Source of the DNA: Siphonodentalium dalli
Taxonomy: Eukaryota; Mollusca; Scaphopoda; Gadilida; Siphonodentaliidae
Assembly (NCBI GenBank): GCA_032622095.1
Contig: CP136069.1
Span: forward strand, 165,346,394-165,410,393
Length of the DNA: 64,000 nt
Direction of reading: 5' to 3'
Below are positions 18,028 through 63,748 of this stretch, piece by piece. The notes below the pieces were generated by a model. It had not been told where the DNA came from, made no database searches, and was given only the letters and a program-made list of their open reading frames with translations. Position numbers and translations under genes: made by a program. How positions within the stretch are numbered: position 1 is the first letter of the stretch; every line of letters begins with the position of its first letter.

Positions 18028-18410
18028 TTAACCCTTTACCCAACAGCACGGCCCTGTGCCAATGCATTCTCTTATATATGCGAGTCGACCATAGGTCGCC
18101 TCGCATATATAAGAGAATGCATTGGCTTAACACATATTCAAAATGATAAAATTGTCAAGAATGTATAGAAAAATATTATAAATATTTTTTTAGGCCAATG
18201 CATTATATATGCGAGGCGACCTATGGTCGACTCGCATATATAAGAGAATGCATTGGCACAGGGCATAACTGTAGCCATCACAATGTGGTCAATGAACCGG
18301 TTCCAATGATATCCATATTTGTATGGTGTTATTGAGACAGACCGAAGATATTTTAGGCTGTTGAAGCTTTATTTGGGCCTTTTTGGCCGTTTTGTTGGGT
18401 AAAGGGTTAA
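18028..18410. mobile_element. TTAA-ended element carrying a double hairpin (copy 1)
   Basis: TTAA lies at both ends (18028-18031, 18407-18410), with inverted ends CCCTTTACCCAACA and TGTTGGGTAAAGGG. Near the left end sits a pair of 67-nt hairpin modules in opposite orientation, 18059-18125 and 18195-18256; the second has lost five bases in its left stem. They are bracketed by CCCTGTG and CACAGGG. The remaining ~140 bases before the right end are shared with the copy at 29689-30053 ('ccggttccaatgat', 'attgagacagaccgaagat'). There is no coding capacity. The TTAA ends are piggyBac-like. Confidence 0.85.
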
Positions 18411-19807
18411 AGAATAATCTACTTTGAGTTTTCTACACTAAACAAATCACCAAGTCGCATATGACGAATCCAGTTGCCTTCTTCGGTTATATGTAAATAA
18501 ATTGTCAGAAGAGATGCGAAACGCACCGCTGGGGTGTTCAGGGGAGGGTGTCGATTAATGTTGCCCAAATGTGTCATTAGATAGGTTTAAATTTTGCCCA
18601 TCAGGCATAACAGACTATAGTTCGTTGTGCCCGAGGCGAGAAAATATTACCCTGTAGTCAAACATCTATGTTCAATTTCCAAACCAAACCATGCCTGTAA
18701 GTATCAGCCTGTTGCCTGCAACATAACAGCGATTTCGTTATAGGCGAGTGGTGCACTACACCTTCCCACTGTATGGGTAATACGCACGCGTATTCAACGA
18801 CAAGACATGCTAGATTTATTATATTGCACCGAAAAATTTGACCTTGTAGAATATAAAAACTATATCCCACCAAAAGAAAATGCTGGACTTCTCAAAGAAG
18901 AGTCCATTCATGCGAATTGAATTTGGTTGCCATTTTGCGAGCCATCTTAAATATTTTTTCCTAAAAACACATCATGTAACACATTTAAGACAGATCAAAA
19001 CAATAATAACCTTTATAACCAAAGATATTTCGATGTTACTTGAGAAATGGTCCAAAACTGAAAAATATTTGTTTTATTTTCATGTCCAGTTTGTGATAGA
19101 ACAATCCAATATTTCTAGTAATGTCAGTAGTTACAATAGTAACAATTAACCAATGTGCATCAGAAATGTTAGTATTCAATGTATTTAGGATAGATTAGCC
19201 AATTTCGTTCATCAACCATACTTGTAAACAATTGCATGGCACGTTTGGGCAATATTTACCATTTTCCATATTTTGGTCGCCATTTTGGTAGCCATTTTGA
19301 ACCAAAGTGACAATTGTGGTTCTTTTGAGTTAAAATATTCATAAGTAATGGTATGCCTCACTTACATTGCACAGTTCTGCTAATTTCATTTCTTGTTGAA
19401 ATATGACTAGAATCCCAATGGTATTTTTTTCTTGTGAAATTTATACCGCGTTCTGTCAAATCGAACTTTTGAGGGATCGGGACTGGCTGGGACTCAACGA
19501 ATTGCATATTTTATTGCTCCAATGATCAGTTAACATGAAGCGTGCAAAATAAAGTCCCAATTCTCAACAAATTCCAAACTGCAGAAACTGATCTAGAAGA
19601 TATTAGTTAAAACACATTAAATTTTCCACTTTCGGTTGCCATTTTGCCGGCCATCTTGGATGGGGAGTTCCAATTTTGCCCAGTAAAGGTGGCATTATAT
19701 CTTACCTTCACAAAATTAATACATTTGTATATATGACAAAAAATTCTTAATATAATTTACTTCAAACTGACGGCGGCCATGTTGGACGCCTTCTTTTATG
19801 GTGTATA
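18411..19807. other. No gene recognised
   Basis: AT-rich DNA without a supportable ORF. 'Gccattttg'-type phrases recur near 18930, 19280, 19640 and resemble decayed R1-like monomers, but the similarity is too weak to annotate. Confidence 0.4.
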
Positions 19808-19853
19808 TTATAAAGTTATTATACAATGTTGTGTACAGTATTATAAAGTTATT

Positions 19854-20009
19854 ATACAATGTTGTGTACAGTATGTGTTTTTCTTGTACGAGTCCAGGTT
19901 GGGGCGAAAAGTCATATTGGACGAGACACGCCAGTGTCGAGTCCAATATGACTTTTCACCACAACCTGGACGAGTACAAGAAAAACTCATACTGTACACA
20001 ACATTGTAT
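19854..20009. repeat. 156-bp near-perfect palindrome, unit 1
   Basis: The arm begins ATACAATGTTGTGTACAG and its reverse complement closes the unit, with the centre at CGAGACACGCCAGTGTCGAG. Each arm is ~70 bp with few mismatches (a GGGGCG/GTGGTG difference near 19905). A truncated 33-base copy of the leading edge precedes it at 19808-19840. The interior contains TCCAATATGACTTTT, which recurs loosely down to 20290. Confidence 0.92.
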
Positions 20010-20023
20010 GATATAAAGTTATT

Positions 20024-20179
20024 ATACAATGTTGTGTACAGTATGTGTTTTTCTTGTACGAGTCCAGGTTGTGGTGAAAAGTCATATTGGACGAGACACG
20101 CCAGTGTCGAGTCCAATATGACTTTTCACCACAACCTGGACGAGTACAAGAAAAACTCATACTGTACACAACATTGTAT
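20024..20179. repeat. 156-bp near-perfect palindrome, unit 2
   Basis: This is a second copy of the palindrome at 19854-20009, offset by exactly 170 bp, separated by the 14-base spacer GATATAAAGTTATT-like sequence. Its arms are more perfect than those of unit 1. After it, TCCAATATGACTTT and its inverse occur several more times (20219-20295), so the array has a decayed third part. Confidence 0.92.
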
Positions 20180-20295
20180 AATGACATTTCGCGATAGAGT
20201 TAATTCGTGACGTCACGGAGTCCAATATGAAAAGTCATATTGTGCAGTCTGGAGTCCAATATGACTTTCGGGAGTCCAATATGACTTTTTCCAGG

Positions 20296-20739
20296 ACTAT
20301 CACGTGGCGGATTTTGCCCAATCGGAAATGGTGTTAGTTAAGGGATGGATAATAAAATCTAACCTATACCCTAACATTTTCCCTTACGGTATAGTCGTCG
20401 GTGGTCTGTGTTCTTCATGACCCGTGTTCTCATAATAAGCTGCCGAATTGAACTGGCTATCATTTTTTTTATCTTCTATAGACATTCAATTTTCAGAAAA
20501 ACATCATTATAATTTGTCCGTGGGTTTGGTAGCGGCAAACCTATCTGGCTGGACGACTAATGTGATCTCTACCGGCGTGACTATAAAGTAGAGATTCGTG
20601 GCGTGATCTATTTGTCGCCCAGTGTGTTCATCCCATCAACCCATCACCACGATATCATTGATAACTGATAGTTTGTGTGGCATTATACAGCCAATCAACA
20701 GACAATCACTGAAATATGCTTTATCATCACAGACCGATC
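20296..20739. other. No gene recognised
   Basis: No ORF or repeat is supportable. Confidence 0.35.
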
Positions 20740-21428
20740 TTAAGGGTATGTTCATATACCGGCCAGTTTTCACAGCATATTTTGCAAGCGACTGATTCAT
20801 GCGAGACGATTGCATGCTATTTACAGGCAAATATCTATAGCATCGCCATACTATGGAACTACATATGTTTTACTTCTCAAGTATAGTTAGCTGTGGTACA
20901 GATGCATTTTATAAGCATTTTTGCATTCGGTTTCTGGCACATTGTAAATTTCTATAACGATATTCCTGCAAACGAATTCCGAGCAAATTTGCGACTGTAT
21001 GAACCTTAAGTATACGTGCAAATTTATTTGCCTGTCATCTTTTTGCAGGCATTTAGATACAGAAAGCTTTGATGTGCCAGAAAACGAACGCAAAAACTGG
21101 TTATGAAACGCATCTCTACCGCAGCTAACTACATGAGAAGTAAAATATATGTAGTTCCCCGCCTGGAGCGTTGCTACCGAAATTTGCCTGTAAATAGCAT
21201 GCAATTATATCGCAAGCCGAGAATCAATCATATCTATTTGAAGTCAAATGCCAGTAGCACCGTTACGAGTGCAAATATACAGAAATTTTACTTCTCATTT
21301 CGTTCGCTTTGGTAAAGATGCATGTTATATGCACGTCTCCGTCCATATTCTGGCACAATTTGGTTTTCTTTGACGAAATGCCTACACAACATACCATGCA
21401 AACTTGCCAGTGCATGAACGTACCTTAA
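20740..21428. mobile_element. Composite TTAA-ended foldback element with three arms
   Basis: The outer ends are TTAAGGGTATGTTCAT (20740) and ATGAACGTACCTTAA (to 21428). An internal ATGAACCTTAA at 20999-21009 provides a third end. 20800-20942 is an inverted partner of 21073-21215 (blocks GATTGCATGC...TTTACAGGCAAAT, 'acttctca', 'tctggcaca'). A third copy of the arm in the first orientation runs from ~21270 to 21428. A simple reading is a 270-bp element (20740-21009) next to or within a related one. No coding is inferred. Confidence 0.75.
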
Positions 21429-21702
21429 ATGGCACTCTTGTTGAATTTGGAATCGTATTGCTTACTGTAATTCGAACCGAATCGAAATTTGTTCGATGCA
21501 AATTCATACATCATTGTTGTCAATGGAATTAGTAAACAGTTGACAGTGGACCTATACTACACCTTGAGAACGAAATGCATGGATACCAGAAGATTCGACA
21601 GATGCAATTAAACTGAGCCATGATTATGGTGCGATTCGACCTTGAACTTCGCTGCGTCTAGTCCCACTCAAGTCCGCAGATATGAATAGACTCTTAAAAT
21701 GA

Positions 21703-27080: not shown

Positions 27081-27085
27081 TATAC

Positions 27086-29688: not shown

Positions 29689-30053
29689 TTAACCCTTTAC
29701 CCAACAGAAGGGCCCTGTGCCAATGCATTCTCTTATATATGCGAGTCGACCATAGGTCGCCTCGCATATATAAGAGAATGCATTGGCTTAACACATATTA
29801 AAGAAAAAATGGTAAAAAGTGTTAAAAAAAAGTTTTTTTTAGGCCAATGCATTCTCTTATATATGCGAGGCGACCTATGGTCGACTCGCATATATAAGAG
29901 AATGCATTGGCACAGGGCATAACTGTAACTATCACAATGTGCTCAATGAGCCGGTTCCAATGATACCCATATTTCCATGGTTTTATTGAGACAGACCGAA
30001 GATAATTTAGGCTGTTAGGGCGTTTCTGGGCGTTCTGTTGGGTAAAGGGTTAA
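29689..30053. mobile_element. TTAA-ended element carrying a double hairpin (copy 2)
   Basis: TTAA at 29689-29692 and 30050-30053 flank CCCTTTACCCAACA and TGTTGGGTAAAGGG, as in copy 1 at 18.03 kb. The hairpin modules are at 29720-29786 and 29844-29910, both full length and exact reverse complements of each other in their asymmetric apex (GTCGACC...GGTCGCC versus GGCGACC...GGTCGAC). The spacer between hairpins (29787-29843) is mostly A/T. The right portion matches copy 1 for ~130 bases. The two copies differ in the spacer length and by several point changes. Confidence 0.88.
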
Positions 30054-31227: not shown

Positions 31228-31239
31228 CATTACTAAACC

Positions 31240-33847: not shown

Positions 33848-34345
33848 TTAACACTTTGATGACGGGGCCTGAGCTAGCGCAACATCAAAGACCCTGTGCC
33901 AATGCATTATCTTAAATATGCGAATCGGCCATAGGTCGACTCGCATATATAAGAGAATGCATTGGCCTAACAATTTTTTATAAATTTTTCTTACATTCTT
34001 TAAAAAAAACAATCCTTTTTTATAAATTTTTCTTACATTCTATAACAATTTTTATAATTTTTTTCTCATATTCTTTTTCTTTAACAATTTTATCATTTTT
34101 TCTTACATTCTTTAATAATTTTTATCATTTTATTTACCATTATTTCTTACATTCTTCATAAATTTATTATCATTTTTTACATCTTTCTTACATTCTTTAA
34201 CTATTATAAAAAAAATATAAAATTTGGTCGGCCAATACATTCTCTTATATATGCGAGGCGACCTATGGTCGACTCGCATATATAAGAGAATGCATTGGCA
34301 CAGGGTTTTCGCAACAATTTAGGAAGCTACCGTCATGGAAGGGTA
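33848..34345. mobile_element. TTAA-type element with a double hairpin and long AT spacer
   Basis: The left end TTAACACTTTGATGACGG (33848) is matched by CCGTCATGGAAGGGTAAA at the right (to ~34345), with the right TTAA lost. Hairpin modules lie at 33899-33965 (left arm mutated: TCTTAAATATGCGAATCGGCC) and 34232-34298. The 266-base spacer is made of diverged TTTTATAA...TTCTTACATTC units, about seven of them. The hairpin module is the same as in the CCCTTTACCCAACA elements, but the outer end differs. Confidence 0.8.
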
Positions 34346-34479
34346 AAGACCACACACATGAACATTACAAAATTCTGCGTCTGTTACTGCCTGAAAAGCG
34401 ATACGATATTGCTCGTCCGAAAATTACTTTCGACATAGTACAACGATGTAAAGCCAATAGTGATGCCAAATAAGATGAT

Positions 34480-35799: not shown

Positions 35800-36047
35800 T
35801 TCATATGATATATAAAGATCTCCCAAATAGCATCTAACAATTCCCGAGAAAACGTGGTGTAATGTAATCCCTGATAATAGAAGTCATCAATACTGTATGT
35901 TTTCTTCACACTACAAGTTGCATCTTTCGGATTTCCATTAATGTTAACATTAATGTCGTACATTATCCAAATGATAACTTTGATTCAATCAGAAAGTTGT
36001 TCGTGGACAACTACTAATCTGTATGGCACTCATCCGTTGATATTTGT
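35800..36047 (+). repeat. Mosaic segment M, copy interrupted by an element
   Basis: This parallels 34560-34710 and 33650-33730 and is cut at 36047 by the GACCCGCC element. It resumes at 36512 and parallels 33745 onwards. Confidence 0.75.
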
Positions 36048-36511
36048 GACCCGCCATATCAAATCCAGTCGTAAGTCGGGATTTTTTTACCCTGTACCAA
36101 TGCATTCTCTTATATATGCGAGTCGACCATAGGTCGACTCGCATATATAAGAGAATGCATTGGCCTAACATTTTTTTACAATTTAAAAAAAAAAATTCTT
36201 GTATTCTTTAACATTTTTATAATTTTACCCATACAGAGCCCCAGACAAACATGAGCAGACGACACTCTTCTATATGCTTCTATATATGTGTATATATGTG
36301 TGGGGCTCCCTGCAGAGTAATGGATGTTTTTTATTTAATGTCCTAAAAAATGTAAGAAACATTTATTTAAAAAAAATGATAAAAAATTGTTAGGCCAATG
36401 CATTCTCTTATGTATGCGAGGCGACCTATGGTCGACTCGCATATATAAGAGAATGCATTGGCACAGGGTAAAAAAAATCCCGACTTAAGACTGGATTTGA
36501 TATGGCGGGTC
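36048..36511. mobile_element. Hairpin-pair element with GACCCGCC ends (copy 1)
   Basis: The 464-bp element begins GACCCGCCATATCAAATCC and ends with its reverse complement. The inverted ends run on through AGTCGGGATTTTTTTACCCTGT into the hairpin modules at 36097-36163 (a fully symmetric apex, GTCGACC/GGTCGAC) and 36395-36461. The ~230-base core ('acagagccccagacaaacatgagcagacg') is shared with 63294-63748 and with no other hairpin element here. The flanks ATATTTGT and ACATTTGA match at 6 of 8 positions, as for a decayed 8-bp target duplication. 8-bp duplications are made by hAT, P and Merlin superfamilies; the terminal bases fit none clearly. It does not code. Confidence 0.88.
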
Positions 36512-36529
36512 ACATTTGATAAAACAAAC

Positions 36530-36718
36530 ACGTCAGTGGAAAGCTCATATAGACCCTATAGGATACGAAGTGGAAACTATAGTATCCCAACCACTCAGAG
36601 CAAATTCGGAACCTTGTCCTGCACAGTTACGTTTAACCCTTTGATGACGGGAGCTGCGCTGGCACAACATTAAAGACCCTGTGCCAATGCATTCTCTTAT
36701 ATATGCGAGTCGACCATA
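36530..36718. mobile_element. Broken TTAA-type element ending in half a hairpin
   Basis: After mosaic sequence parallel to 33745-33847, TTAACCCTTTGATGACGG begins at 36633, as at 33848. It runs through GACCCTGTGCC into the first half of a 67-nt hairpin (36684-36717), which stops at its apex (GTCGACCAT). The next base begins sequence belonging to the LINE region, and the other half of the hairpin is not found at the LINE's 3' side. So the element was cut exactly at the hairpin tip. Confidence 0.82.
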
Positions 36719-36949
36719 TGGAGTTTTTATGCCAGTTCAAAGAGTTGATGTTAGACATTCACTCAGAACTCTTCTGCCACGTGAGCCATTTTTAGATCAC
36801 GCCGATCAATTATGTTTTGAACCAATCAGAACGAAACACTCGGAATTTCCGACATTTTCTGACAGTATAAAACATTTTAATCAATTTATGACTTTCCAAA
36901 CTTGTGGGTTGTCTCTGTTCCGGCTACCTGAGCCCGGATCGCTTGTGAG

Positions 36950-37711
36950 TTGTGTGGTCGATCTGAAAAGATCTTAGCCGCCCGAGCGATTCGGAGTGAA
37001 CGTTTTTGGACTTGGCAGAGGATTATGTTGCTAATCCCCTCTGCCGTTGTCGCGGCCTTGGATAGACTGCGCATTGTGGACACCTTTAGCTGGACTCTAA
37101 CCCAGGCTAAAGGGGGCTTTGTGCGTCTATCCTTTGAGTACCGGATTGCTCCAGCAGTACCCTCTGCTGGCGGTACCTCGGAAGCTGGATTCCACCAGCG
37201 ACCTACCATCCGGTACGGGGATCTGGACCTTTGGGACCAGACCAGGAAGAAGAGGCGGAAGAAGACCCCCTCCAAGAGAAGAAGGGACTCCACAAGAAGA
37301 GCCAAGTGGATACTGGGGCGAGCTGAGAGACGCCCAGCTCCCCCCACTTGGTTGCTGAATCGGTCGTCGACGAAATCTCACCAGCTAGCAGGGACTCCGT
37401 TGATCTGCCGGAGGTCCCTGCTGTCGTCATCGATGCGAGCGGTCACAGGGACGCCGACACCACCCCGGATGTGCCTGCCGCCAGCTTCGATGTGGAGATG
37501 GACACTCTACCACCTCGGACACCGGAATTCCATCTAAACCCGGTGTCCCCCATCTCCACGGGTAGCAACAACAACAACAGCGCTAGCTCCACCCGTACCC
37601 TTGAAGAGGTAGCGGCAGAATCGGAAGCACGCGAGATGAGATGGAAAGAAAACGACAAGGTGAATGAAGAAAAAGACAGACAAATTGCAGCTACGCTCCA
37701 TCTATACCACC

Positions 37712-37763
<52 letters not shown>

Positions 37764-38073
37764 GCAGAAGGAAGAAATCCAAAAAAAGGAAGAAAAAGAA
37801 ATAAAAAATATATTAATGTCTAGATCATCTTTTTTTCATGATACATCGTTATGTTTTACATCTCATAACTTCATACATCACTCCCAAGTGGGTTGTAAGA
37901 GAGGGCATCCTGTCCTTTCAAATCCTCCCTGGGCGCAACTCCAAAACTCCTTTAAAAAAAATTACTTTCCAAGCGAGTCTATACCCAATTCGCTACCCGC
38001 AAGCACAAATCTTACTGTCAGACATTGTTCTACCGAAAGCTATCTAAAAAGATATAGACGTGAAGCAGTCTGA
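36950..38073 (+). pseudogene. LINE upstream ORF ('ORF0'), one homopolymer frameshift
   Basis: I do not recognise a named domain. It is read in one frame from ~36950 to ~37345 and then in the next frame to 38073. The first part has a Trp-rich segment (FWTWQRIM, FSWTL, then VRLSFEYR), a strongly basic stretch (KKRRKKTPSKRRR) and RRPAPP. The second part has TPDVPAASFDVEM, an Asn/Ser stretch and a His/Gln run from (CAC)n(CAA)n at 37707-37762. The same order of motifs is found at 60851-61707. There CCCTCCC stands where this copy has CCCCCC (37339-37344), so one base has been lost here. Past the Gln run the frame may be non-coding. A nucleic-acid-binding role is possible from the basic stretch, but that is inference. 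Confidence 0.6.
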
Positions 38074-38135
38074 AGCTATTCATATATGGATTAAACTTTT
38101 ATTCTGAAAACAAAAATAGTGGAAGTGAACAAAGG

Positions 38136-38747
38136 ATGGCCGCTTCCAATGAGCATGGTATCAAATTACCATCTGCGATGAGGCGGACACGCTCTACTAC
38201 AAGCCTCAGTGAATCCAAAGATGGTGAGCTGACAAAGATAGAAACTGTGTCAGATTTATCAAAGCTCGTCAATCGTGTATCTGACCGAAATACGAAAACA
38301 GTAAAGAAAGCAACAAAAAATTTAAAAAAACTAAAACCAAATGGGGAAATAAGGACACATACGCAGCGTGTGGAGGAAAATGAAAAATGGTGTGAAAGAC
38401 CATGTGATGTGGAATTCTGTGTTGACAAAAATCAGCTGGACGTTATTGTGGATAAGATTTCGGATATTTGTGGGGAAGCTTACTCGATTGAACGTAAGTT
38501 ACAAAAGGATATGAAAGTCCAAATAAATCTTTTTGTCAAAGGCCGAAACATTAAATATGTTTCTATAAATATATATAACAATGGAACTGTGCTGGTTCAA
38601 GGATTAAACAATTGTGTTGAATGGAAACATAAATACTTCCAAGAAATATATAAAGATATCACTGGAGAAATGGTTGATCGAATACAACCGAAGTTGATGA
38701 CCCAGAAATCGAAACGGCTAGCACAAAAACTGAAGAACTATTCTTAG
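38136..38747 (+). CDS. LINE ORF1, N-terminal part
   Basis: It starts at ATG in a good context (AAAGGATGG) and encodes 203 residues. The N-terminal third is basic (KKATKNLKKLKPNG). Residues ~90-185 form an alpha/beta-looking segment with the phrase NIYNNGTVLVQG, a motif type I associate with ORF1 proteins of several invertebrate LINEs. At about 38690 the natural reading appears to shift by one base: the +2 frame is open from 38678 and reads acidic, coherent protein (EELFLAVEES) into the SGNH part. The stop at 38745-38747 is thus probably an artefact of a 1-nt deletion, and the original ORF1 would be ~740 residues. Nucleic-acid binding is expected for ORF1 in general. Confidence 0.75.
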   Translation: MAASNEHGIKLPSAMRRTRSTTSLSESKDGELTKIETVSDLSKLVNRVSDRNTKTVKKATKNLKKLKPNGEIRTHTQRVEENEKWCERPCDVEFCVDKNQLDVIVDKISDICGEAYSIERKLQKDMKVQINLFVKGRNIKYVSINIYNNGTVLVQGLNNCVEWKHKYFQEIYKDITGEMVDRIQPKLMTQKSKRLAQKLKNYS

Positions 38748-40360
38748 CTGTCGAGGAATCTATCTCGAAAGTCGTTCTGCAGAATAGTTCGTTCGACGAA
38801 TTCAGATCTGTACTCGGGCGAGTGGAACAGCAGACGACAGACGCAAATACGTTACTGCAAAATCTGGGCGATGTAATGAAACCGGATACTGCAAACATAC
38901 ATATAAAGCCAAGCATGGCGGCAGAACATTTGGAACTAAACCAGCTGGGCGACCAAATTCTCGGAAAGATACAGGGGTTCATTACATCGGCCCTAACGCC
39001 ATTGCGCAACTCTCTGACCTCAATGGAACAAGAAATAAAGACTCTACAGACAGTTATCCACAATGTCTCTCCTCACATTACCATGGACATAACAAAAACA
39101 AATAAGACACGTGCCGAGTTGTCGGCATGCGTCGAGTCGGCGGCAATACAGACCGACAAGGATCCCCGCGGCGAATCTGATGATAGGAACGAATCCGAGC
39201 CGGAGGTATATTACGGTTTATCAACAGCAAATAGCTTTATGGCTCTGTCAAATGAAAGAATTGTGATGGAGGACGAAATCTACCAGTCACCTCCACAATC
39301 GCCGACAGTTAATATGCCATCACCAAACCGGAAGAAAAGTCGAAAATCAACAATCATGATACCACGACTGGATTATGAAAATGTGATTCTCACAAACTCA
39401 ATAGCCAAACAAATAAGAGGGACTCGCCTGGACCATTCAAGAAATACCTGGGTACACCATATTCCCAACGCAATGGAAGGGTTACATAATTTCCTGGAAA
39501 TGTCACCTGTAAATTCAAGGACGAAGCAATTAGTTCTCGTCACTGGCCATAGTGACATTGAGTCAGAAAATGTGGAAAATGTGCAGCAAATGTTCGAGCT
39601 GATTCAAAACATAAGCCATGATAAATTTCCAAACGCCCGTGTTATTGTGATGGCTATTCTTCCTCGAGCGGAAGCTTCGGCTGTAGATCAAAAACTCTTG
39701 GAGCTGAATGCCAACCTTGAGGATGTTTGTTCAAATCATCAACACCTCACATTCATCGATGTGGGACCTGCCTTCTTGGATGAACATGGTGTTACTAACC
39801 GTATGTTATATCGCGATACTATCCACCTAAATTACAAGGGTGTGGGTGTCCTGTGCATACAATTAAGGCATTTGTTGAACATCGCGCAGAGAGAACACAG
39901 CACGCGGGAAGGAAGACAATACAAGCATAACATTCCCCGCGGCTACGAGGATTATTCCTATAAGAAGCAAGAAAATCCCTACCACAAACAAAGAAGAGAT
40001 TGGAACAACCAACAAAGAAATTATCAACGAAGAGACTATATGCATAAACAATATTCAACACCACAGAGGCATCATAGACAGTCAGCCAGCCAGTATCAAT
40101 ATACTGCGAATATACATAAACAACAATATTCAACACCACAGAGGCATCATAGACAGTCAGCCAGCCAGTATCAGAATACTGCGAATATAGATAAACAATA
40201 TTCAACACCACGTTCTGTGCCACCACAGAGGAATCATGGACAATCAGCACCAGCCAACCAGTATCAGAATACTGCGAATACGGGAACTCAAAATAATTTT
40301 GACATGACTGATTTTTGTGTGGCATATCTCAAGCAGTTCTCACCATCCTATTTTGCTTGA
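38678..40360 (+). CDS. LINE ORF1, C-terminal part with SGNH/GDSL esterase-like domain
   Basis: Open from 38678 (first usual start 38822, a GTG; the real start is upstream in the other frame). Counting from 38822: residues ~190-200 VILTNSIAKQI take the place of block I (GDS-type), ~240-246 VLVTGHSDI the GxND-type block III, and D332-T-I-H335-L-N the DxxH block V. The serine and catalytic His/Asp positions are therefore plausibly kept (TNS, DTIH). Esterase-like ORF1 domains are known in CR1-type LINEs; their role in retrotransposition is unsettled. The C-terminus has three imperfect tandem repeats of QYSTPQRHHRQSASQYQ (40045-40270), rich in Gln/Arg, likely RNA-binding by composition. Confidence 0.85.
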   Translation, partial: SNTTEVDDPEIETASTKTEELFLAVEESISKVVLQNSSFDEFRSVLGRVEQQTTDANTLLQNLGDVMKPDTANIHIKPSMAAEHLELNQLGDQILGKIQGFITSALTPLRNSLTSMEQEIKTLQTVIHNVSPHITMDITKTNKTRAELSACVESAAIQTDKDPRGESDDRNESEPEVYYGLSTANSFMALSNERIVMEDEIYQSPPQSPTVNMPSPNRKKSRKSTIMIPRLDYENVILTNSIAKQIRGTRLDHSRNTWVHHIPNAMEGLHNFLEMSPVNSRTKQLVLVTGHSDIESENVENVQQMFELIQNISHDKFPNARVIVMAILPRAEASAVDQKLLELNANLEDVCSNHQHLTFIDVGPAFLDEHGVTNRMLYRDTIHLNYKGVGVLCIQLRHLLNIAQREHSTREGRQYKHNIPRGYEDYSYKKQENPYHKQRRDWNNQQRNYQRRDYMHKQYSTPQRHHRQSASQYQYTANIHKQQYSTPQRHHRQSASQYQNTANIDKQYSTPRSVPPQRNHGQSAPANQYQNTANTGTQNNFDMTDFCVAYLKQFSPSYFA

Positions 40361-40449
40361 AACCTTTCAATTCTAATGATAATCTCGTAATTATAAAAAA
40401 AAATTTCCATCACCCCAGCTTCTCCGTTCCGTAACGCAACATCTCTAAC

Positions 40450-43400
40450 ATGACATCTAACACAGTCGAACAACAAATCAATTGCAATTTCACAAGACGT
40501 CATCTTAAGTTTTCTTTCTGGAATATTCACGGAATTCGCGACTCGCTTGGTCAAAACAAAGTATGCGATGAAATCTTTGTAGACAATTTTATTAGAAAAT
40601 ATGACATCATAGCTTTTATGGAAACCTGGATTTATAATGACGAATCGCATGTTTCCGTACCGGGATATCAAATGGTCACGAAATATAGAGAAAATAAAAA
40701 GAGGCGCGGGTTAGTTATATATATCCGCAGTAGTCTTATGCAAGGAATACACGTGATTGATACCAAAAGCCCAAATATTATATGGCTCAAGCTTTCTAAG
40801 CAGTGGTTCAGAATAGCGAATGATATTTATTTATGTACAGCTTATTGTGCGCCAGACAATTCTTCAGCCCAAAAGGCTGGTGGGGAAGACACTCTTAAAC
40901 TTATAACGGGAGACATTTCCAAATATGCCGCTAAAGGGAACATTATTATACAGGGCGATTTAAACGCGAGGACAGGATCAATCAAGGACTCGATATCGCA
41001 CGACAATACAACCATGCAAATGCCCCTCCCCCTCGATTATATCCCGGATACTCAATTGCCATGTAGGCGCTGTAGAGATAATAAGATTAACACGCGAGGC
41101 AGAGACCTCATAAAACTTTGCATGGACTCCAGCATGAGGATAGTGAATGGCCGCACTGCGGGAGATTTTCTTGGTAACTTCACCTCCTATCAACCCGCAG
41201 GGAGTAGTGTAGTAGATTATGTAATAGGTAGCCAAGCTCTCTTTGATCGAATACCGTTCTTTCATGTGAACCCATTGACTATTTTATCTGACCATTGTCA
41301 ATGCTGGTTTATCTTAAACATTGGCTCCTCAATTACTGACTCTGAACAGCATGAGACCTTTCCTTTGCGTGCGAAACCACTGCGATTTAAATGGGATGAA
41401 CTGGCCTCATTTCGGTTTAGGGAAGAGTTTAACACACCAGATGTACAGGTCAATTTGCGAAAAATATTTGAAGATGAAGAAAGCTCTTCAAAAGTACTTG
41501 TCTCCAAACTCAATGCTATAATGCATATTGTTGCTTCTAGGTCCCTCAAACGACAATCTACACAACACAGACGAAAACACAATATATATGCCAGTAAACC
41601 CTGGTACGATCATACATGTGCTGAACTGAAACGTCAGTTGACTCGCTCTGTTAAATGCCTAAATGACAACCAACAAGACCTCATCATTCGTGGGCGTTAT
41701 TTTAATTTGAAGAAGCAGTATCGAAAGTTTTTAAATTCCAAACGAAAATCATTTAGACTCGATAAATATCACACTCTTGTGGGGATGGAAAATAAATCAC
41801 CTTCACGATATTGGGCTATTATTGATGAATTAAAACATGAATCTAATGGCAGGCCCAATTTTGCAGGTACTAACTTTCACCCAAAAGAACTATATGATCA
41901 TTTTAAAAATCTAGGCAGTTTGACTGCAGACACTGACCAGTTATTCAAACAGACCGTTCTCGCAGAACTTCCAATATTAGAAGAACGGGCGCGAGATATA
42001 ACTGACCTTGACTATGAAATTTCCGAATTAGAAATCAGGCACGCGATCACGAGACTAGCTAATGGCAAGGCTGAAGGCCTTGATTGTATTAAACCAGATA
42101 TGATAAAAAGCGTTAAAGATCAGCTCATACCTATTTTTAAAAAAATGTTTAAACGACTACTTACAAATGGAGATTTCCCTGAAGAATGGCTTGAGGGTTT
42201 CATAATTCCTATACCAAAATGTAAACACCCAACAACACCAAACGACCTTCGCGGGATCACCATTACCAGTGTATTGGGTAAAATATATGCTGATATACTG
42301 CTTAATCGGCTAACTTCGTTTTTTCAACATAAGGGTATACCTTCGAAATTTCAAGCAGGTTTCCGCAAAGATCATACGACATCCGATAACACGCTTGTTT
42401 TACGAACACTCATAAATAAATCTATACTAAAACGGAAAAAGTTGTATACGTGTTTCGTAGACTTCAATAAGGCTTTCGATAGAGTATGGCGTGAAGGTTT
42501 GCTGTATAAACTAATCAAATTGGGTGTGGGTGGTACAGTATATACCACAGTTAAAAAGATAATCACTGAATATACAACTATTGTCCAATGTGGGATAAAT
42601 AGTTTAACAGACAAATTCCAGGGAGCAGTGGAATTGATGCAGGGAAATAATTTAAGCCCTTTATTTTTCAATATATTCATAGATGAAATTGCTTCGATCC
42701 TACTCGAAAGCAAATCAGACGCCCCAAATGTTTTCGGCGAAGAAGTCCCGTGCTTGATGTATGCCGACGATCTTGTTTTGATTTCAGAAAGCCCCGGTGG
42801 CCTCCAGACAATGCTAAATTCATTACATAAATACTGTCGGGAATGGCAAATTACCCTGAACAGTTCTAAAACAAAAACTCTTGTTTTTCATGCTGGGGGT
42901 CAACATATCTCAAAACCAACATTTACCTTCGGCAACCAAAGTCTTGAATCGACACAGTCATATACATATCTTGGTATTAAATTCTTTGCTTCCGGCAAAA
43001 TGACACATGCTATATTGGATCTAAAAAACAGAGCATCAAGAGCACTTTTCAAATTACGCTCAAGTCTTGATCACGATTTACCTGTCGAAGTATCAACAAA
43101 ACTATTTGACACATGTGTTAAACCGATCCTCACCTACGCATCCGAGACATGGGGTGACGAGACAGTTAATAGACAGTCAAATGAAATAGAGAAATTTCAC
43201 CTAAACTATGCAAAAAATCTCCTCGGTATCAGTAAAACTGCAACAAATGTAGCCGCACTTGCGGAGCTGGGGAGATTTCCAATAAGACTAGATATCCTGA
43301 GAGATATGGTAAAATTTTGGCTCCGTCTAGAAAATATGGACACGAATAGACTGCCGGCCAAATGTCTGGCAGAAATGAAAACATGGACTAATTGCGCATG

Positions 43401-43983
43401 GCTTAACTGTGTCCGGAAAATCATGGTTACATATGGCTTTCAAAACGTATATGAAAACCCGCGTAATATAGACCGACAAACGTTTTCCAACAATTTTCTC
43501 CAAACCATGAAAGAAAAATATGCCAGTTCATGGAAAGTCAGTGATATTTATGGAAAACCCACTGAGAATATTAAGGTAAAATTCATATCCAAATTAAAAC
43601 CGGCTGACACATACGAGCTATCAAATTACCTCAGAAATTTACCGCGAGGTGGCCGTAAAGTGATCTCTAAATTAGTGACCAGCTGCCATAATCTAGAAAT
43701 TGAACGCGGCCGATACACTAAGCCTATTACCCTCAGACTGGACCGTGTATGTAAACAGTGTCATACAGGCGTCGTTGAGGACGAGGAACATTTTATAATA
43801 CACTGTCCTCGATATAATATCCAACGGATATTGCTATATGAAACAATGGAACAAATTACAACAAATTTCATGGAACTTGACGCTAACGCCAAACTACGTA
43901 TACTTTTTGCAGTTGATGATCGACTTTGTAATAGGGCCCTCAGTAATTTTATTCAGACAGCTTCTTATTTAAGACGCGAATAA
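40450..43983 (+). CDS. LINE ORF2: EEP endonuclease plus reverse transcriptase, intact
   Basis: 1177 codons from ATG at 40450. Residues ~20-285 are the apurinic-type endonuclease: FWNIHGI (~23), METW (~57), GDLNAR (~168), SDH near 280. Residues ~520-860 are reverse transcriptase: LANGKAEGLDCI, PIPK, R-G-I-T, FRKDHTTSDN, FVDFNKAFDRVW (catalytic Asp), LMQGNNLSPLFFN, then MYADD with the catalytic pair at residues 773-774 (Y at 771), and LGI. Near the C-terminus C1101-x2-C1104-x9-H1114-x4-C1119 is the CCHC zinc-binding motif common to LINE ORF2. The ORF ends 200 bp before the AATAAA. The lack of stops or frameshifts over 3.5 kb suggests recent insertion. The spacing from ORF1 is 89 bp. Confidence 0.95.
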   Translation: MTSNTVEQQINCNFTRRHLKFSFWNIHGIRDSLGQNKVCDEIFVDNFIRKYDIIAFMETWIYNDESHVSVPGYQMVTKYRENKKRRGLVIYIRSSLMQGIHVIDTKSPNIIWLKLSKQWFRIANDIYLCTAYCAPDNSSAQKAGGEDTLKLITGDISKYAAKGNIIIQGDLNARTGSIKDSISHDNTTMQMPLPLDYIPDTQLPCRRCRDNKINTRGRDLIKLCMDSSMRIVNGRTAGDFLGNFTSYQPAGSSVVDYVIGSQALFDRIPFFHVNPLTILSDHCQCWFILNIGSSITDSEQHETFPLRAKPLRFKWDELASFRFREEFNTPDVQVNLRKIFEDEESSSKVLVSKLNAIMHIVASRSLKRQSTQHRRKHNIYASKPWYDHTCAELKRQLTRSVKCLNDNQQDLIIRGRYFNLKKQYRKFLNSKRKSFRLDKYHTLVGMENKSPSRYWAIIDELKHESNGRPNFAGTNFHPKELYDHFKNLGSLTADTDQLFKQTVLAELPILEERARDITDLDYEISELEIRHAITRLANGKAEGLDCIKPDMIKSVKDQLIPIFKKMFKRLLTNGDFPEEWLEGFIIPIPKCKHPTTPNDLRGITITSVLGKIYADILLNRLTSFFQHKGIPSKFQAGFRKDHTTSDNTLVLRTLINKSILKRKKLYTCFVDFNKAFDRVWREGLLYKLIKLGVGGTVYTTVKKIITEYTTIVQCGINSLTDKFQGAVELMQGNNLSPLFFNIFIDEIASILLESKSDAPNVFGEEVPCLMYADDLVLISESPGGLQTMLNSLHKYCREWQITLNSSKTKTLVFHAGGQHISKPTFTFGNQSLESTQSYTYLGIKFFASGKMTHAILDLKNRASRALFKLRSSLDHDLPVEVSTKLFDTCVKPILTYASETWGDETVNRQSNEIEKFHLNYAKNLLGISKTATNVAALAELGRFPIRLDILRDMVKFWLRLENMDTNRLPAKCLAEMKTWTNCAWLNCVRKIMVTYGFQNVYENPRNIDRQTFSNNFLQTMKEKYASSWKVSDIYGKPTENIKVKFISKLKPADTYELSNYLRNLPRGGRKVISKLVTSCHNLEIERGRYTKPITLRLDRVCKQCHTGVVEDEEHFIIHCPRYNIQRILLYETMEQITTNFMELDANAKLRILFAVDDRLCNRALSNFIQTASYLRRE

Positions 43984-44152
43984 TGTGACAATAACGGGCC
44001 AATGCTAGACAAGAACTTTATATTTCAGAATTTATGCTTGTATATTGCCCATTGATTACCATACCATGTTATATGTTTGTTTTCTTTATTTTCTGTATGT
44101 GTACATGTACATGTATATTGCCATACCCAAATGTATTTGTTTGTAGTCGCGC

Positions 44153-44182
44153 AATAAAGATCTATCTATCTATCTATATATA
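44153..44182 (+). terminator. LINE polyadenylation signal and (ATCT)n tail
   Basis: AATAAA at 44153-44158 is followed at once by GATCTATCTATCTATCTA. Short tandem tails in place of poly(A) are typical of CR1/L2-like 3' ends and fix the LINE's 3' boundary. Confidence 0.85.
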
Positions 44183-44610: not shown

Positions 44611-44852
44611 TTAACCCTTTCAGTGCCAGGGGCCGATCTCATCGGCCCTAATTTACGGTCTGTAAAATCGGCCCTAAAAAAAAAAAAAAAAAAAATTGTA
44701 AAAAATAATAACAAATGATGAAAAATTGTTAGGCCAATGCATTGTCTTATATATGCGAGGCGACCTATGGTCGACTCGCATATATAAGAGAATGCATTGG
44801 CACAGGGTATATGGGTTGATACAAAAATCGGACCTGGCACTCAAAGGGTTAA
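44611..44852. mobile_element. TTAA-ended element with one hairpin only
   Basis: TTAA at 44611-44614 and 44849-44852; ends TTAACCCTTTCAGTGCCAGG and, on the other strand, TTAACCCTTTGAGTGCCAGG, then GGCCGAT/TCCGAT. One hairpin module at 44734-44800 is preceded by 'aaaaattgttagg' and followed by CACAGGGTA, as for the second (right) hairpin of other copies; the left one is missing. A poly(A) run of 20 lies at 44678-44697. This gives a third kind of TTAACCCTTT end around the same module. Confidence 0.85.
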
Positions 44853-52590: not shown

Positions 52591-54712
52591 TACTCTTGAT
52601 ATTACCTGACGTCTTGATATTACCTGATGTCTTGATATTACATGTCGTCTTGATATTACCTGATGTCTTGATATTACCTGTCGTCTTGATATTACCTGAC
52701 GTCTTGGTATTACCTGGCATCTTGATATTATCTGACGTCTTGATATTACCTGATGTCTTGATATTACCCATCGTCTTGATATTACATGACGTCTTGATAT
52801 TACCTGGCGTCTTGATATTACCTAACGCATTGGTATTACATGACGTCTTGACATTACCTGACGTCTTGGCATTACCTGGCGTCTTGGTATTACCTGACGT
52901 CTTGGTATTTCCTGTCGTCTTGGTATTACCTGACGTTTTGGTATTACCTGGCGTCTTGGTATTACCTGGCTGCTTGATATTACATAACGTCTTCATATTA
53001 CCCGAAGTCTTCATATTACCTGAAGTCTTCATATTACCTGATGTCTTGATATTACCTAGCTGCTTGATATTACCTGGTTGCTTGATATTACCTAACATCT
53101 TGATATTACCTGGCGGCTTGATATTACCTGACCGCTTGATATTATCTGGCTGCTTGATATTACCTAACGTCTTGATATTACCTGACGTCTTGATATTACC
53201 TGACGTCTTGATATTACCTGGCTGCTTGATATTACTTGACGTATTGATATTACCTGACGTCTTGATATTACCTGACCTCTTGATATTACCTGACGTCTTG
53301 ATATTACCTGACGTCTTGATATTACATGGCTGCTTGATATTACCTGGCGTCTTGATATTACCTGGCTGCTTGATATTACTTGACGTATTGATATTACCTG
53401 ACGTCTTGATATTACCTGACGTCTTGATATTACATGGCTGCTTGATATTACCTGACCTCTTGATATTACATGGCTGCTTGATATTACATGGCTGCTTGAT
53501 ATTACATGGCTGCTTGATATTACATGGCTGCTTGATATTACATGACGTCTTGATATTACCTGACGTATTGATATTACCTGACGTCTTGATATTATCTGGC
53601 TGCTTGATATTACCTAACGTCTTGATATTACCTGACGTCTTGATATTACCTGACGTCTTGATATTACCTGGCTGCTTGATATTACTTGACGTATTGATAT
53701 TACCTGACGTCTTGATATTATCTGGCTGCTTGATATTACCTAACGTCTTGATATTACCCGACGTCTTGATATTACCTGACGTCTTGATATTACCTGACGT
53801 CTTGATATTACCTGGCTGCTTGATATTACCTGACGTCTTGATATTACCTGGCTGCTTGATATTACCTGACGTATTGATATTACCTGACGTCTTGATATTA
53901 TCTGGCTGCTTGATATTACCTAACGTCTTGATATTACCTGACGTCTTGATATTACCCGACGTCTTGATATTACCTAACGTCTTGATATTACCTGACGTCT
54001 TGATATTACCTGACGTCTTGATATTACCTGGCTGCTTGATATTACTTGACGTATTGATATTACCTGACGTCTTGATATTATCTGGCTGCTTGATATTACC
54101 TAACGTCTTGATATTACCTGACGTCTTGATATTACCTGACGTCTTGATATTACCTGACGTCTTGATATTACCTGGCTGCTTGATATTACCTGACGTATTG
54201 ATATTACCTGACGTCTTGATATTACCTGGCTGCTTGATATTACCTAACGTCTTGATATTACCTGACGTCTTGATATTACCTGACGTCTTGATATTACCTA
54301 ACGTCTTGATATTACCTGACGTCTTGATATTACCTGACGTCTTGATATTACCTGGCTGCTTGATATTACCCGACGTCTTGATATTATCTGGCTGCTTGAT
54401 ATTACCTAACGTCTTGATATTACCTGACGTCTTGATATTACCTGACGTCTTGATATTACCTGACCTCTTGATATTACCTGGCTGCTTGATATTACCTGAC
54501 GTCTTGATATTACCTGACGTATTGATATTACCCGACGTCTTGATATTACATGGCTGCTTGATATTACCTGACGTCTTGATATTACCTGACGTCTTGATAT
54601 TACATGGCTGCTTGATATTACCTGACGTCTTGATATTACCTGACGTCTTGATATTACCTGACGTCTTGATATTACCTGACGTCTTGATATTACCTGGCGG
54701 CTTCTCACTTTC
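52590..54712 (+). repeat. 18-bp minisatellite, ~117 units, with higher-order pattern
   Basis: The unit is TTGATATTACCTGACGTC with variants in the last six bases (GACGTC, GGCTGC, AACGTC, GACGTA, GACCTC) and in ACCT (ACAT, ATCT, ACTT). Because 18 is a multiple of 3, the array is open over 711 codons on the plus strand (repeating LPDVLI/LPGCLI) and open for 184 codons on the minus strand (GNIKTS). Variants are ordered: a block such as SGCLI-LPNVLI-LPDVLI-LPDVLI-LPGCLI-LLDVLI-LPDVLI recurs at least five times from 53140 onward. The first ~500 bases (before 53100) lack that order and carry TTGGTATT units. There is no start context, promoter or domain, so I call it non-coding DNA. Confidence 0.93.
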
Positions 54713-59927: not shown

Positions 59928-59997
59928 CATAACATCAATTGTGTTTGGCCTAACTATATTATATATCTAATTGAGAAACCGACGTTTTTTTCGTGGC

Positions 59998-60204: not shown

Positions 60205-60705
60205 CTAATTTGAGTTTAGGAAAGTCTTCTTCTTAGTGGATGTAGTCATTATGTAGAGTCTGTGTTGATGCAGTTTATAGCAGAGACCTCTGGAAGCGAC
60301 CTCAATACGGCATGCCAGTTGAGATGGTATGTTCAGCTTGGAGCAGTCAAGTGTCATCTGCAGCATTCTTTTCTTTGACATCATGATCTGTTCTGATAGC
60401 AGTGGTGATTCGGCGGCGATGATGTCATTAATAGTCTGAAGAAGGGGACCTCTTATTGCTTCCAATCTGTGACAGTCCAGTATGAAGTGCTCCATGTCTT
60501 CTACTTGGTTCAGACAGAGGGGGCATACATTTGTTATAGAAGAGTTTGAGAATCTAGCTCTCTGTTTCTGTAAGATATAAGTTCCTGCAGCCATTTTCAG
60601 TTTGATTGTAGCCATTGTAACAGCAAAAGGGTTGGTTCCACATGTTTCCCAGATAGGGTGGATCTTCCCTGCTTGAGCATCTTCAACGTTTAAATAGGTC
60701 TAATT
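60205..60705 (-). pseudogene. LINE ORF2 C-terminal fragment with zinc-binding motif
   Basis: The frame is open upstream of the ATG at 60615 to about 60705 (phrases YLNVEDAQAGKIHPIWETC, then MATIKLKMAAGTYILQ). It contains CPLCLNQVEDMEHFILDC: C-x2-C-x8-H-x4-C, the C-terminal CCHC of LINE ORF2. The phrase 'ATIK.K...GTYILQ..RA.F' before the zinc motif is typical of an invertebrate LINE group different from the 36.7-kb element. The endonuclease and reverse transcriptase are missing, so the copy is 5'-truncated. Confidence 0.85.
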
Positions 60706-60850
60706 GCGTTTCCGTCCTATATAATTATATACGCTCCGAGATATGACCGCGATTCTTGTACATGATATGTAGGCCAATATATATATGCTTGTCCCCACAC
60801 CCGGCTGTAACTAGCAATCTGATTGGCTACAACGACACGTTTAAATCACC

Positions 60851-61707
60851 ATGTACACCACCACCCTTGACAGTTGGGTATCAGAGAACGTGCGCGAAAC
60901 ACCGGGGGAACAGGATTCACGTTTCCGGTCACTCAGGGGATGGACGTACCAGCGAGAGCTCCTCGCTAATCCTAGAGTGGCCGTTGATTTTTTTTGTCGA
61001 GCTTGGCTGACCATGGGAGATTTAATCCTCAGCCAATTTCGCAACGTGTTGAGCGGCTACCAATCTGCCCATTGTATTAGCTGGTCTCTCCATGCTAATA
61101 CGGGTAGATTGTACGAGGTTTGAAGTTCCAGGTCACCCCGGTAGAACCCTCTACCGGCCGTGGCCTGGAAGGACCGACCGGACTCCACCGGTCCGGGGCT
61201 GCCGGGACCACAGGCAAGAAGATAACGAAGACCCTATCAAGACGTCGCATGGATGCCATCAGGAGGGCCGAGTGGAAACGGGGAACTGAGAGACGCCCAG
61301 TTCCCTCCCACTTGGCCTCCGGGGCAGAAGATCGGCCTGTTGCAGATGCCACCACCAACAACAGGAGCAGGGATGCCGAAGTCATCCCGGACGTCCCTGT
61401 CGTCGGCGTGGACAGCGGAAATGGGGACACCGACGTCACCCCGGACGTCCCTGCCGTTGTCTTCGTTGTGGAGATGGCAAAACCACCTGGCCAGTCTCCA
61501 CCAGGGGCGGAATCTACCACAATCTATACAGACGATGTGATCCAAGCGATGGAAGAGTCCCTGCAATTCTACACCCCAGGACCTGACTACGACCGCATAT
61601 TCGCCATGATAGAGAAAACGCGGGCATTAAGAGCACTGACTGAGACAGCCAACAACAACAGCGACAACAACACCACGCCACTAAAATACCGGTTTGGGGG
61701 GAGCTAA
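60851..61707 (+). pseudogene. Free-standing copy of the LINE ORF0-type protein, one frameshift
   Basis: ATG at 60851 opens a 90-codon frame: Trp/Phe-rich segment (FFCRAWLTMGDLILSQF), then HCISWSLHANTGRLYEV. It stops at 61121-61123, but the next frame continues from there (KFQVTPVEPSTG), with RRRMDAIRRAEW, RRPVPS, TPDVPAVVFVVEM and an Asn-rich end (NNNSDNN). The same order is seen in 36950-38073. The homopolymer that is shifted there is intact here (CCCTCCC at 61306-61312), and the shift here lies at ~61119, where the other copy is in frame. The two copies thus correct each other. No ORF1 or ORF2 follows. A CCAAT in inverse (GATTGG, 60821) precedes it. Confidence 0.6.
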
Positions 61708-62145
61708 TCCCGGGATTGTCGAAGGCGTCGAATGGGCCCTTCCTTAATCCCTCATTTTTTGCCTTTAATTGAGATATCAAACAAGTAAAAAACTGAAATA
61801 TAACACATTTTGCAAAATTCATTTTTTCTTCTTTCTTCTTACTTTGGCAGGTGGTTATTCCCTTCACATCGGGGGAATATTGGGGTGAAGGAAAAGATCA
61901 CTTGATATTTTCGACCATCCCGGGCGCTTCGCGCCCAACTACTCTCTTTATTATCGGGGAAATATGAATGATCCTTGAACTGGCAGTTACCACCAATCCT
62001 GACGTTGCTCTAGCATGCCGAGTGACGTCACATGCGCCTGATCCTTAGGTCGGCTACTGAATTATTCTTTTTGGTGTGAGTTAATCGGAGAACCTATAAA
62101 AATACACTTAAATTAAGGAGACATCGCTATAATTGTTGAGACAAA
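61708..62145. other. No gene recognised downstream of the ORF0 copy
   Basis: No LINE ORF1 or ORF2 follows. A pyrimidine tract and AG (CTTCTTTCTTCTTACTTTGGCAG, ending 61851, in form) would make a fair splice acceptor, but no coding exon is evident after it. GGGCGCTTCGCGCCC (61922-61936) is a perfect small hairpin. Confidence 0.4.
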
Positions 62146-62297
62146 ATCGTTATCTCGGCAACATCGTGGGGTATACATCGGGTACATCGGGTACATCGGG
62201 ATTTAATACCCGGATGGCTCCGCCCCGGGGTTCAAAATCTACATCCAGGTATTAAATCTCCATGTACGTGTACCCCCGATGTTGCGGAAGATAATTA
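62146..62297. repeat. Imperfect foldback, ~150 bp
   Basis: 'ggcaacatcg.ggggtatac', 'acatcgggatttaatacc.gg' on the left pair with 'cc.ggtattaaatctccatgt' and 'gtacccccgatgttgc' on the right. The left side also holds a triple of 'cgggtacat'. The apex is 'atggctccgccccggggttc'. It is probably a decayed MITE. Confidence 0.65.
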
Positions 62298-63105
62298 ATA
62301 TTGAAAAATTCACGAAATATTGATATTCCGGTCTCATATATGCTCTGAAAAATACTTGCCATGGTCACAGCCATTTTACTGCTCTTTTCAATTTTGTGCA
62401 TAGAAGTCATACAAACGATCTATATTTTTACCATATCAGAAATAGACTAACGCGGAACGCTCTTCTCTGTCCCATGTCGTGCAAATGGCTGTTTTTTTGT
62501 TTGGTACCCTTAACATTGTGTTCAAAGTTGTAATTTGTATGACTTCAATGCGTCTTCATAATGCTCGTAGAAAGGTAGAAAATTTTGTATTTTGGATCGC
62601 CAACCGCCATGTGTCTTCAAGGAGGAGGTCAAGTGACCAATTTCGAATGGACATTTCCATGCAAATCTCCGCAGCAAAAGTTACAGAGTTGCAAATATTT
62701 CTGGGTGTGACTTTGTGCGGCATTGAAACTTTACACATTTATCTGGCGGGTCGGTTTGGAATTTCTTCCATTAAATGTTGATTTTTGTTGTTGTTTTTTT
62801 ATTGATTTTTAAAAACTAGGCAAGTGTTGTATTTCCAGAAAAAAATTCTCAAAAATTGCCAATTTACCAAGCCCAGCCGCCAGATAAATGTTATGTCTGT
62901 TTAATGATATGGCTGCTTTAGTTCCCACACAATTGCTTCATATATAACTTTTGCTGGGGAGATTTGCATGGAACTCCCCATTCACTTGACCTCCTTGATG
63001 ACTGAAACGATGATACACCACAATGAACAAAACTTGTACATGGCATCAATATTCACACAAGACTGTGTAAACTATATATATACTGTGCGGCGTCTGCCCA
63101 TGCTA
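62298..63105. other. No gene recognised
   Basis: A plus-strand frame of 100 codons (62479-62781) has no domain. Nothing else stands out. Confidence 0.35.
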
Positions 63106-63293
63106 TATCACCCGTGGTCAAGTGGTCATACTAATATGCTGTGATACTGGTGATCCTGCTGAATTGCTATGGTGCTGGTAGGGCAAACTGATGCCGTTAT
63201 GAACAAGTACCGTTATATTGTCTAAAGTTGTCATTTACGCAGTGTTTGGCTAATCAGAGCGATTTAAAAAAAACCCAGTGTGTTTATATATAC
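63106..63293 (+). repeat. Paralogous segment, left part (pair with 16.7-17.2 kb)
   Basis: 'tggtcaagtggtc', 'gggcaaactgatgccgtta', 'taccgttat', 'tctaaagttgt', 'gtgtttggctaatc', 'agcgattt' match 16700-16737 plus 17028-17118. The last eight bases (ATATATAC) are the left target duplication of the following element. Confidence 0.75.
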
Positions 63294-63748
63294 GACCCGC
63301 CATATCAAATCCAATCGGAAGTCGGGATTTTTTTTACCCTGTGCCAATGCATTCTCTTATATATGCGAGTCGACCATAGGTCGCCTCGCATATATAAGAG
63401 AATGCATTGGCCTAACAATTTTTTACAATTTTAATAATTTGTTCTTGTATTCTTTAACAATTTTATAATTTCACCAATACAGAGCCCCAGACAAACATGA
63501 GCAGACGACACTCTTCTAGGTGCTTCTATATATGTGTTGGGCTCCTGCAGGGTAATGGGTGTTTTTTTTTATTTTTTGTCCTAAAAATTGTAAGAAACAT
63601 TTATTTAAAAAACATGATAAAAAATTGTTAAGCCAATGCATTCTCTTATATATGCGAGGCGACCTATGGTCGACTCGCATATATAAGAGAATGCATTGGC
63701 ACAGGGTAAAAAAATCCCGACTTCCGACTGGATTTGATATGGCGGGTC
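63294..63748. mobile_element. Hairpin-pair element with GACCCGCC ends (copy 2), perfect 8-bp TSD
   Basis: 455 bp beginning GACCCGCCATATCAAATCC and ending with its inverse. The flanks are ATATATAC at 63286-63293 and again at 63749-63756. Hairpin modules lie at 63344-63410 and 63633-63699, and the inverted ends run without a break from the outer terminus into them (~115 bases). The core 63411-63632 matches that of 36048-36511 ('cagagccccagacaaacatgagcagacgacactcttct'). The unoccupied paralogous site is at ~17119-17140. This is the clearest mobile copy in the window. It has no ORF of substance and so depends on an enzyme supplied elsewhere. Confidence 0.93.

Follow-up and report, generated by a model that had tools for sequence, protein, structure and literature searches.

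A paired hairpin cassette inside short transposable elements

The stretch of DNA analyzed here (hereafter the window) comprises 64 kb of the genome of the scaphopod mollusc Siphonodentalium dalli (contig CP136069.1, positions 165,346,394 to 165,410,393), along which a 67-nt hairpin is found repeatedly inside short non-coding elements flanked by terminal inverted repeats (TIRs). The hairpin is part of a larger unit that we have called cassette M, composed of CCCTGTG, a hairpin, an AT-rich interior, an inverted hairpin and CACAGGG, the boundaries of which are identical in all the families of elements that carry it. The 18-base arm of the hairpin, CCAATGCATTCTCTTATA, has 23 matches in the window at three mismatches or fewer, against 0.12 expected from shuffles, and one of them (at 13910) has no hairpin visible by eye. 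Folded as RNA the hairpin reaches -50.9 kcal/mol (z -13.9, none of 200 shuffles as good), with a stem of 31 pairs and one mismatch. A 26-mer of the module gave no matches in viral contigs or in prokaryote genomes.

The module positions listed in an original prediction, made from the letters of the window, were all recovered, including the shortened module at 18195 (62 nt, with a 5-bp deletion) and the half module at 36684. Each pair of hairpins had been said to be bracketed by CCCTGTG and CACAGGG, and so are all five pairs (one of them with CCCTGTA, at 36090), but the module at 44734 is a lone hairpin, not a member of a pair, and has the CACAGGG side only. The T/G asymmetry of the arms, with GTCGAC in the outer and GGCGAC in the inner one, is kept in most copies, the exceptions being 33899 and 36097, with GTCGAC in the inner arm as well.

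Around the cassette we found the four different outer ends that had been announced, and we have used them to define families A (TTAACCCTTTACCCAACA), B (TTAAC[A/C]CTTTGATGACGG), C (GTGACCCGCC) and D (TTAACCCTTTCAGTGCC), whose copies in the window are listed in Table 1. These elements are short, have TIRs and a target site duplication and are present in high copy number, i.e., they have the characters of miniature inverted-repeat transposable elements (MITEs). The copies of A that were read measure 233–473 bp (a few flanking bases included) and those of C with a cassette 425–471 bp. In family A the cassette is placed off-center at the distances given in Table 1, and the copies of D that were read retain only one hairpin. 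Family B contains the most diverged hairpins, with the tip GTCTCCC-AT-AGGGAGCC, together with a younger type that has the GTCGACC tip in common with A, C and D.

Table 1. Cassette-bearing elements and a cassette-free relative in the window.
Feature	Position	Strand	Remarks
Cassette M in a family A copy (CCCTGTG-hairpin-interior-hairpin-CACAGGG)	18052..18263	+	Hairpins 18059-18125 and 18195-18256 (5-bp deletion)
Family A element, TTAA ends, TIR CCCTTTACCCAACA, outer end TTAACCCTTTACCCAACA	18028..18410	+	M 24 bp from one end, ~150 bp from the other
Family A element, second copy, outer end TTAACCCTTTACCCAACA	29689..30053	+	Hairpins 29720-29786 and 29844-29910, both perfect
Family B element, young type, outer end TTAAC[A/C]CTTTGATGACGG	33848..34347	+	Hairpins 33899-33965 and 34232-34298
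Second family B element, left part, half hairpin (36684)	36633..36721	+	Sequence switches at the hairpin apex, adjoining a non-LTR retrotransposon
Family C element, TIR GTGACCCGCC of ~45 bp, ATTT on both sides	36046..36513	+	Hairpins 36097-36163 and 36395-36461
Family C element, second copy, first bases altered, ATATATAC on both sides	63294..63748	+	Hairpins 63344-63410 and 63633-63699, both perfect
Family D element, TTAA ends, TIR CCCTTTSAGTGCC, outer end TTAACCCTTTCAGTGCC	44611..44852	+	One hairpin (44734-44800), other cassette half missing
Module-free TTAA element of another family, TIR CCCTTTCTATRCT	3970..4228	+	TTAACCCTTT relative without cassette

Abundance in the genome

We searched the genome to which the window belongs (2.227 Gb in nine contigs). 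The exact 18-base arm was found 161,504 + 161,334 = 322,838 times and the exact 67-nt hairpin 44,703 + 44,592 = 89,295 times, while the reversed controls gave 0 and 0 in both searches. The exact hairpins alone amount to 6.0 Mb (0.27% of the genome), with mutated and half hairpins to be added, and the hairpins are mostly arranged in pairs. In one region (G000 C1, ~742000-926000) perfect hairpins occur at a regular spacing of ~14.5 kb and then of ~11.2 kb, and this steadiness suggests tandem arrays of a long unit containing module elements.

To the window we added 20 stretches of 10 kb at fixed positions, giving a sample of 264 kb in which the elements were sorted by eye; further small loci outside this sample were picked through exact matches. 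All 25 module-bearing elements or relics of the sample could be assigned to the four families (9 to A, 10 to B, 4 to C and 2 to D), counting halves, relics and elements cut by the end of a stretch (L010, L014 2386, L019, L023, L024, L027 and the half at 36633). Within family B, one element (L016 2328-2640) has the arm motif CCAAYGCATTCTCTTATATATG in about six tandem repeats, an expansion of the hairpin arm. Two half B hairpins (L014 2386 and L023 6096) lie within what seems to be the same longer repeat, so that another element may have taken an old copy of the cassette with it.

Two target sites, and the question of a single family

Families A, B and D are found at TTAA and share the ends TTAACCCTTT (TTAA-CCCTTT). 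Family C has TIR GTGACCCGCC and, in eight of eleven copies with both ends, an identical 4-bp AWWT duplication (ATAT, ATTT or AAAT); in two others (L029 and L052) there is a one-base difference between the two sides, and an eight-base repeat stands beside the altered end of the copy at 63294. Three of these eleven copies (L029-L031) have lost the cassette and were used for the duplication count only. The same cassette occurs therefore with two types of target site, which suggests that two different transposases are behind the families that carry it.

A TTAA duplication and CC[C/T]T termini define piggyBac elements (definition as in PMC2872659), and both are present in A, B and D. Since TTAA-CCCTTT is common to three of the four ends, these three look like one superfamily, piggyBac-like by their termini and target, in a genome where piggyBac transposase domains (PF13843) are abundant (128 matches, many of them open). 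Family C does not fit among the piggyBac-type MITEs. Duplications of 4 bp are known for several transposon superfamilies. The description of the host MITEs as unrelated holds thus for C against the rest, but not among A, B and D.

The common start TTAACCCTTT of A, B and D could also be taken to mean that there is a single transposon family whose outer ends have simply diverged. We consider this most improbable, because C has an AWWT duplication where the others have TTAA, and because the outer parts of the window copies of A to D do not match each other at E 0.01 beyond the shared ends, while their hairpins are nearly identical. Family C and the mosaic described next already contradict it.

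A chimeric family

That the cassette has passed between families is shown by a further group, A2, in which the termini of A surround a C-type cassette. In two loci (L081 and L083) both ends are those of A and the interior and right hairpin those of C; along L081 the matches run to A over 4-108, to C over 28-390 and again to A over 389-450. One crossover can be placed anywhere along the ~80 bp of left hairpin common to both families, and the other falls on a TA, a microhomology of 2 nt. A third locus (L082) has the same structure but has lost its right end. The right junction of A2, TGGCACAGGGTATTTTAGGCTG, has 301 exact copies in the genome, indicating that the mosaic has multiplied. Movement of the cassette between families, as originally proposed, is borne out by this chimera.

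As to how A2 was made, the left junction GAAGATACCCTGTGCC, predicted if M had been inserted into the A arm with duplication of TA, has no exact match in the genome. Its absence speaks in favor of template switching or recombination as the origin of A2, a lost intermediate being possible.

The same junction bears on the idea that M is a transposon in its own right, with CCCTGTG at its ends and TA as its insertion site, which entered each host element on a single occasion. Several features are as this idea would have them: M has the same boundaries everywhere, C reads TTTTA-M-TAAAA, M follows ATA in D, TA adjoins M in A2 and in two other loci (L058 and L063), and one locus (L074) has both hairpins with no C terminal repeat on either side. 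On the other hand, the borders of M in A and B have no TA duplication, GAAGATACCCTGTGCC does not occur, and no M with TA on both sides was seen in unrelated DNA, none of the 25 elements of the 264-kb sample standing alone. The left side of L074 keeps TTTTTTTTA as in C and its right side lacks TA, and another locus (L050) resembles a diverged B end. We regard an independent transposon M as unlikely. Of the loci with a C-type interior in which the C terminal repeat is missing on at least one side (L058, L063/L064 and L074; TA lies beside M in L058 and L063), L058, L063 and L074 are possible stand-alone units.

Cassette-free relatives of the four families had been proposed as a check. A TTAACCCTTT-type element without cassette, belonging to another family, does exist in the window (Table 1), but no intact module-free A, C or D was present among the candidates inspected. 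These were sought by exact junction patterns, from which diverged cassette-free forms could escape, and for A, C and D only. For A there were five places, all inspected, of which four keep CCCTGTG and the fifth (C5:41070048) reads as a deletion with a remnant of the apex. The three places for C, all of them read, comprise one that keeps CCCTGTG (L031), one with a piece of the interior (L029) and one that is deletion-like (L030). The left arm of D is followed by a letter other than C in 285 places, and the five that were read gave three mutated or deleted cassettes (L084-L086), a truncated fragment lacking the TTAA end (L087) and one locus (L067) in which a short insertion precedes the cassette. 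The inspected candidates all have the appearance of fragments or of cassette copies that have been damaged.

Pairing and rate of change in the hairpins

Changes on the two sides of the stem were compared in 15 hand-picked hairpins (14 distinct rows), mostly of the old B types. Between old and young hairpins five pairs have changed on both sides, with a covariation score of 0.122, compared with 0.073 for shuffles (none of 500 reaching the observed value) and 0.046 or less with the partners slid. Quite different is the pattern among 68 young 67-nt hairpins, most of them selected through one exact arm, of which 46 are perfect and the rest accumulate 31 changes, all one-sided and none paired. These 68 come from 84 full hairpins, after exclusion of 16 that were not 67 nt long, were nearer to the old type or were too different. 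From the concerted changes between old and young types and the one-sided decay of young copies we infer that the hairpin matters to the lineages that multiply, pairing being kept there and decaying in resident copies. This pattern agrees better with a role in cis in mobilization than with repair between arms or with selection acting on individual copies.

Another explanation would be that the hairpins are kept because the host makes use of them, or because they are transcribed as double-stranded RNA (dsRNA) that feeds small-RNA silencing. The stability of the stem and the very high copy number are in favor, but with 31 of 31 changes in young hairpins one-sided (most of these hairpins having been chosen through an exact arm) the copies do not look individually kept, and a search of the window against Rfam gave no matches. 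We give very little credence to this explanation.

The hairpins also appear to change slowly. In family A, the hairpins have 9 singletons among 1760 bases and the right arm 24 among 1435 (p 0.0014), the corresponding figures for the fixed-position subset being 3 among 799 and 15 among 619 (p 0.0011). In family C there were 12 in 1015 against 26 in 1119 of the neighboring parts (p 0.05), with 4 in 376 against 12 in 419 in the fixed-position subset, not significant (p 0.08). Genome-wide, across families of mixed age, 55% of the exact arms are part of an exact hairpin, the corresponding figure for an equally long stretch of the C interior being 31%. For the alignment of A, 18 of 34 candidate stretches were kept (both orientations counted), the rest having no hairpin arm near the short end; it was then used without L081, L083, L023 and L077, leaving 14 rows, and L041 escaped the filter. 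Loci that overlapped or were duplicates were excluded, seven in the comparisons of A and C copies and eight in the comparison of hairpins across families.

Both the deficit of singletons relative to neighboring parts of the same elements and the excess of exact arms within exact hairpins are what gene conversion would produce if it homogenized the hairpins throughout the genome, moving them also between families. However, the constant tip mismatch has survived, corrections in pairs were not seen, and the slow change could in part be caused by the choice of loci through exact arms and by hidden subfamilies inflating the singletons of the flanks, the genome-wide figures being of mixed age. Such conversion seems to us highly unlikely as the main explanation.

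Proposed history of the cassette

The explanation that we favor, and consider probable, is that these are MITE families, three of them piggyBac-like, with a common hairpin cassette that has spread by recombination or template switching. Families A to D would be non-autonomous DNA transposons, whose outer ends are the parts on which a transposase acts, predicted to be of the piggyBac type for A, B and D (TTAA) and a different one for C (4-bp AWWT). The cassette probably arose in B, because this family holds its most diverged versions, and A, C and D would then have received it, at least in the case of A2 through template switching or recombination between elements, each recipient family multiplying afterwards with the cassette inside. 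As pairing is preserved in the lineages that multiply, the hairpin probably helps mobilization, for instance by forming a cruciform or by offering a palindromic site for binding. In the piggyBat paper (PMC11707139) piggyBac ends are described as carrying identical 19-bp palindromes bound by the CRDs of the transposase.

Several observations weigh against this explanation. The chimera is known from only three A2 loci, one without its right end, and some of the 301 junction copies may be broken. The M borders of A and B show no duplication and have no empty counterpart (the search for module-free forms covered A, C and D). An autonomous element with the ends of A to D was not found, a script scan of four piggyBac loci (L036-L039, two of them alike) giving no matching TTAA end pair, and C is unassigned to a superfamily. 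The direction from B to the others is probable from relative divergence rather than from a tree. Regarding the hairpins, the count of two-sided pairs is by itself not unusual (52 of 500 shuffles), and the rows were hand-picked; the choice of most of the young hairpins through one exact arm masks paired changes in that part, and those at fixed positions are only 22 (15 perfect), with 13 changes, none paired.

Comparison with known elements

The layout had been thought to correspond to no described family, but this does not stand, since the CMITEs of Acropora corals (Wang et al., 2010; PMC2872659) are TTAA MITEs with different TIRs around one shared internal region. They are described there as ~100 bp long with a 75-bp interior, all at TTAA, with an estimated 1600 copies in A. 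millepora and tandem arrays; their CCCTTT-type TIRs vary and the interior is more conserved than the TIRs, a role in transposition being proposed for it and its origin left open by the authors. The word hairpin is absent from that text. By description, both systems have different TIRs around one conserved interior; the elements studied here have a cassette with a pair of 67-nt hairpins (89,295 exact hairpins in all), a non-TTAA family and a chimeric one. What is added here to the coral precedent is the hairpin pair, the second target type, the scale and the chimera.

A conserved internal domain common to elements of different mobilizing machinery is also found in the MER6 MITE with a SINE V domain (PMC6887750), although that domain is traced to a short interspersed element (SINE), while the hairpin pair is common to DNA transposon families of one genome. 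Among the top-ranked matches in the open-license literature we found no prior description of this cassette.

Foldback-type DNA transposons such as Galileo have long inverted repeats and recombine between copies, and in this they resemble the elements described here, whose palindromes are however internal to the terminal repeats.

Other repeats in the window

The non-LTR retrotransposon that adjoins the half B element (36722-44170) has reverse transcriptase and endonuclease domains in an open frame of 1182 aa. Its 5' side abuts the apex of the half hairpin, and no second half was seen past its 3' side. A 2.1-kb array of an 18-bp unit (52594-54696, ~117 copies) has frames open on both strands. 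At 19845-20188 there is a 169-nt inverted repeat, 89% complementary and with smaller inverted repeats inside, which is another palindromic element.

Implications

Where the interiors of MITEs come from and why only a few of these elements become hugely abundant are open questions, and the authors of the coral study say so of theirs (PMC2872659). In this assembly old and young versions of one cassette, two types of target site and a chimera are found together, so that the frequency of interior swaps and the effect of the hairpin on copy number, irrespective of the outer ends, can be counted. A bolder and rather doubtful proposal is that the hairpin pair is a portable amplification cassette working with transposases of different classes, in which case the families that acquired it would have become high-copy, cassette-free forms would not have multiplied, and the pairing itself would have been kept. 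If this were true, genomic parasites would share an exchangeable part that acts in cis.

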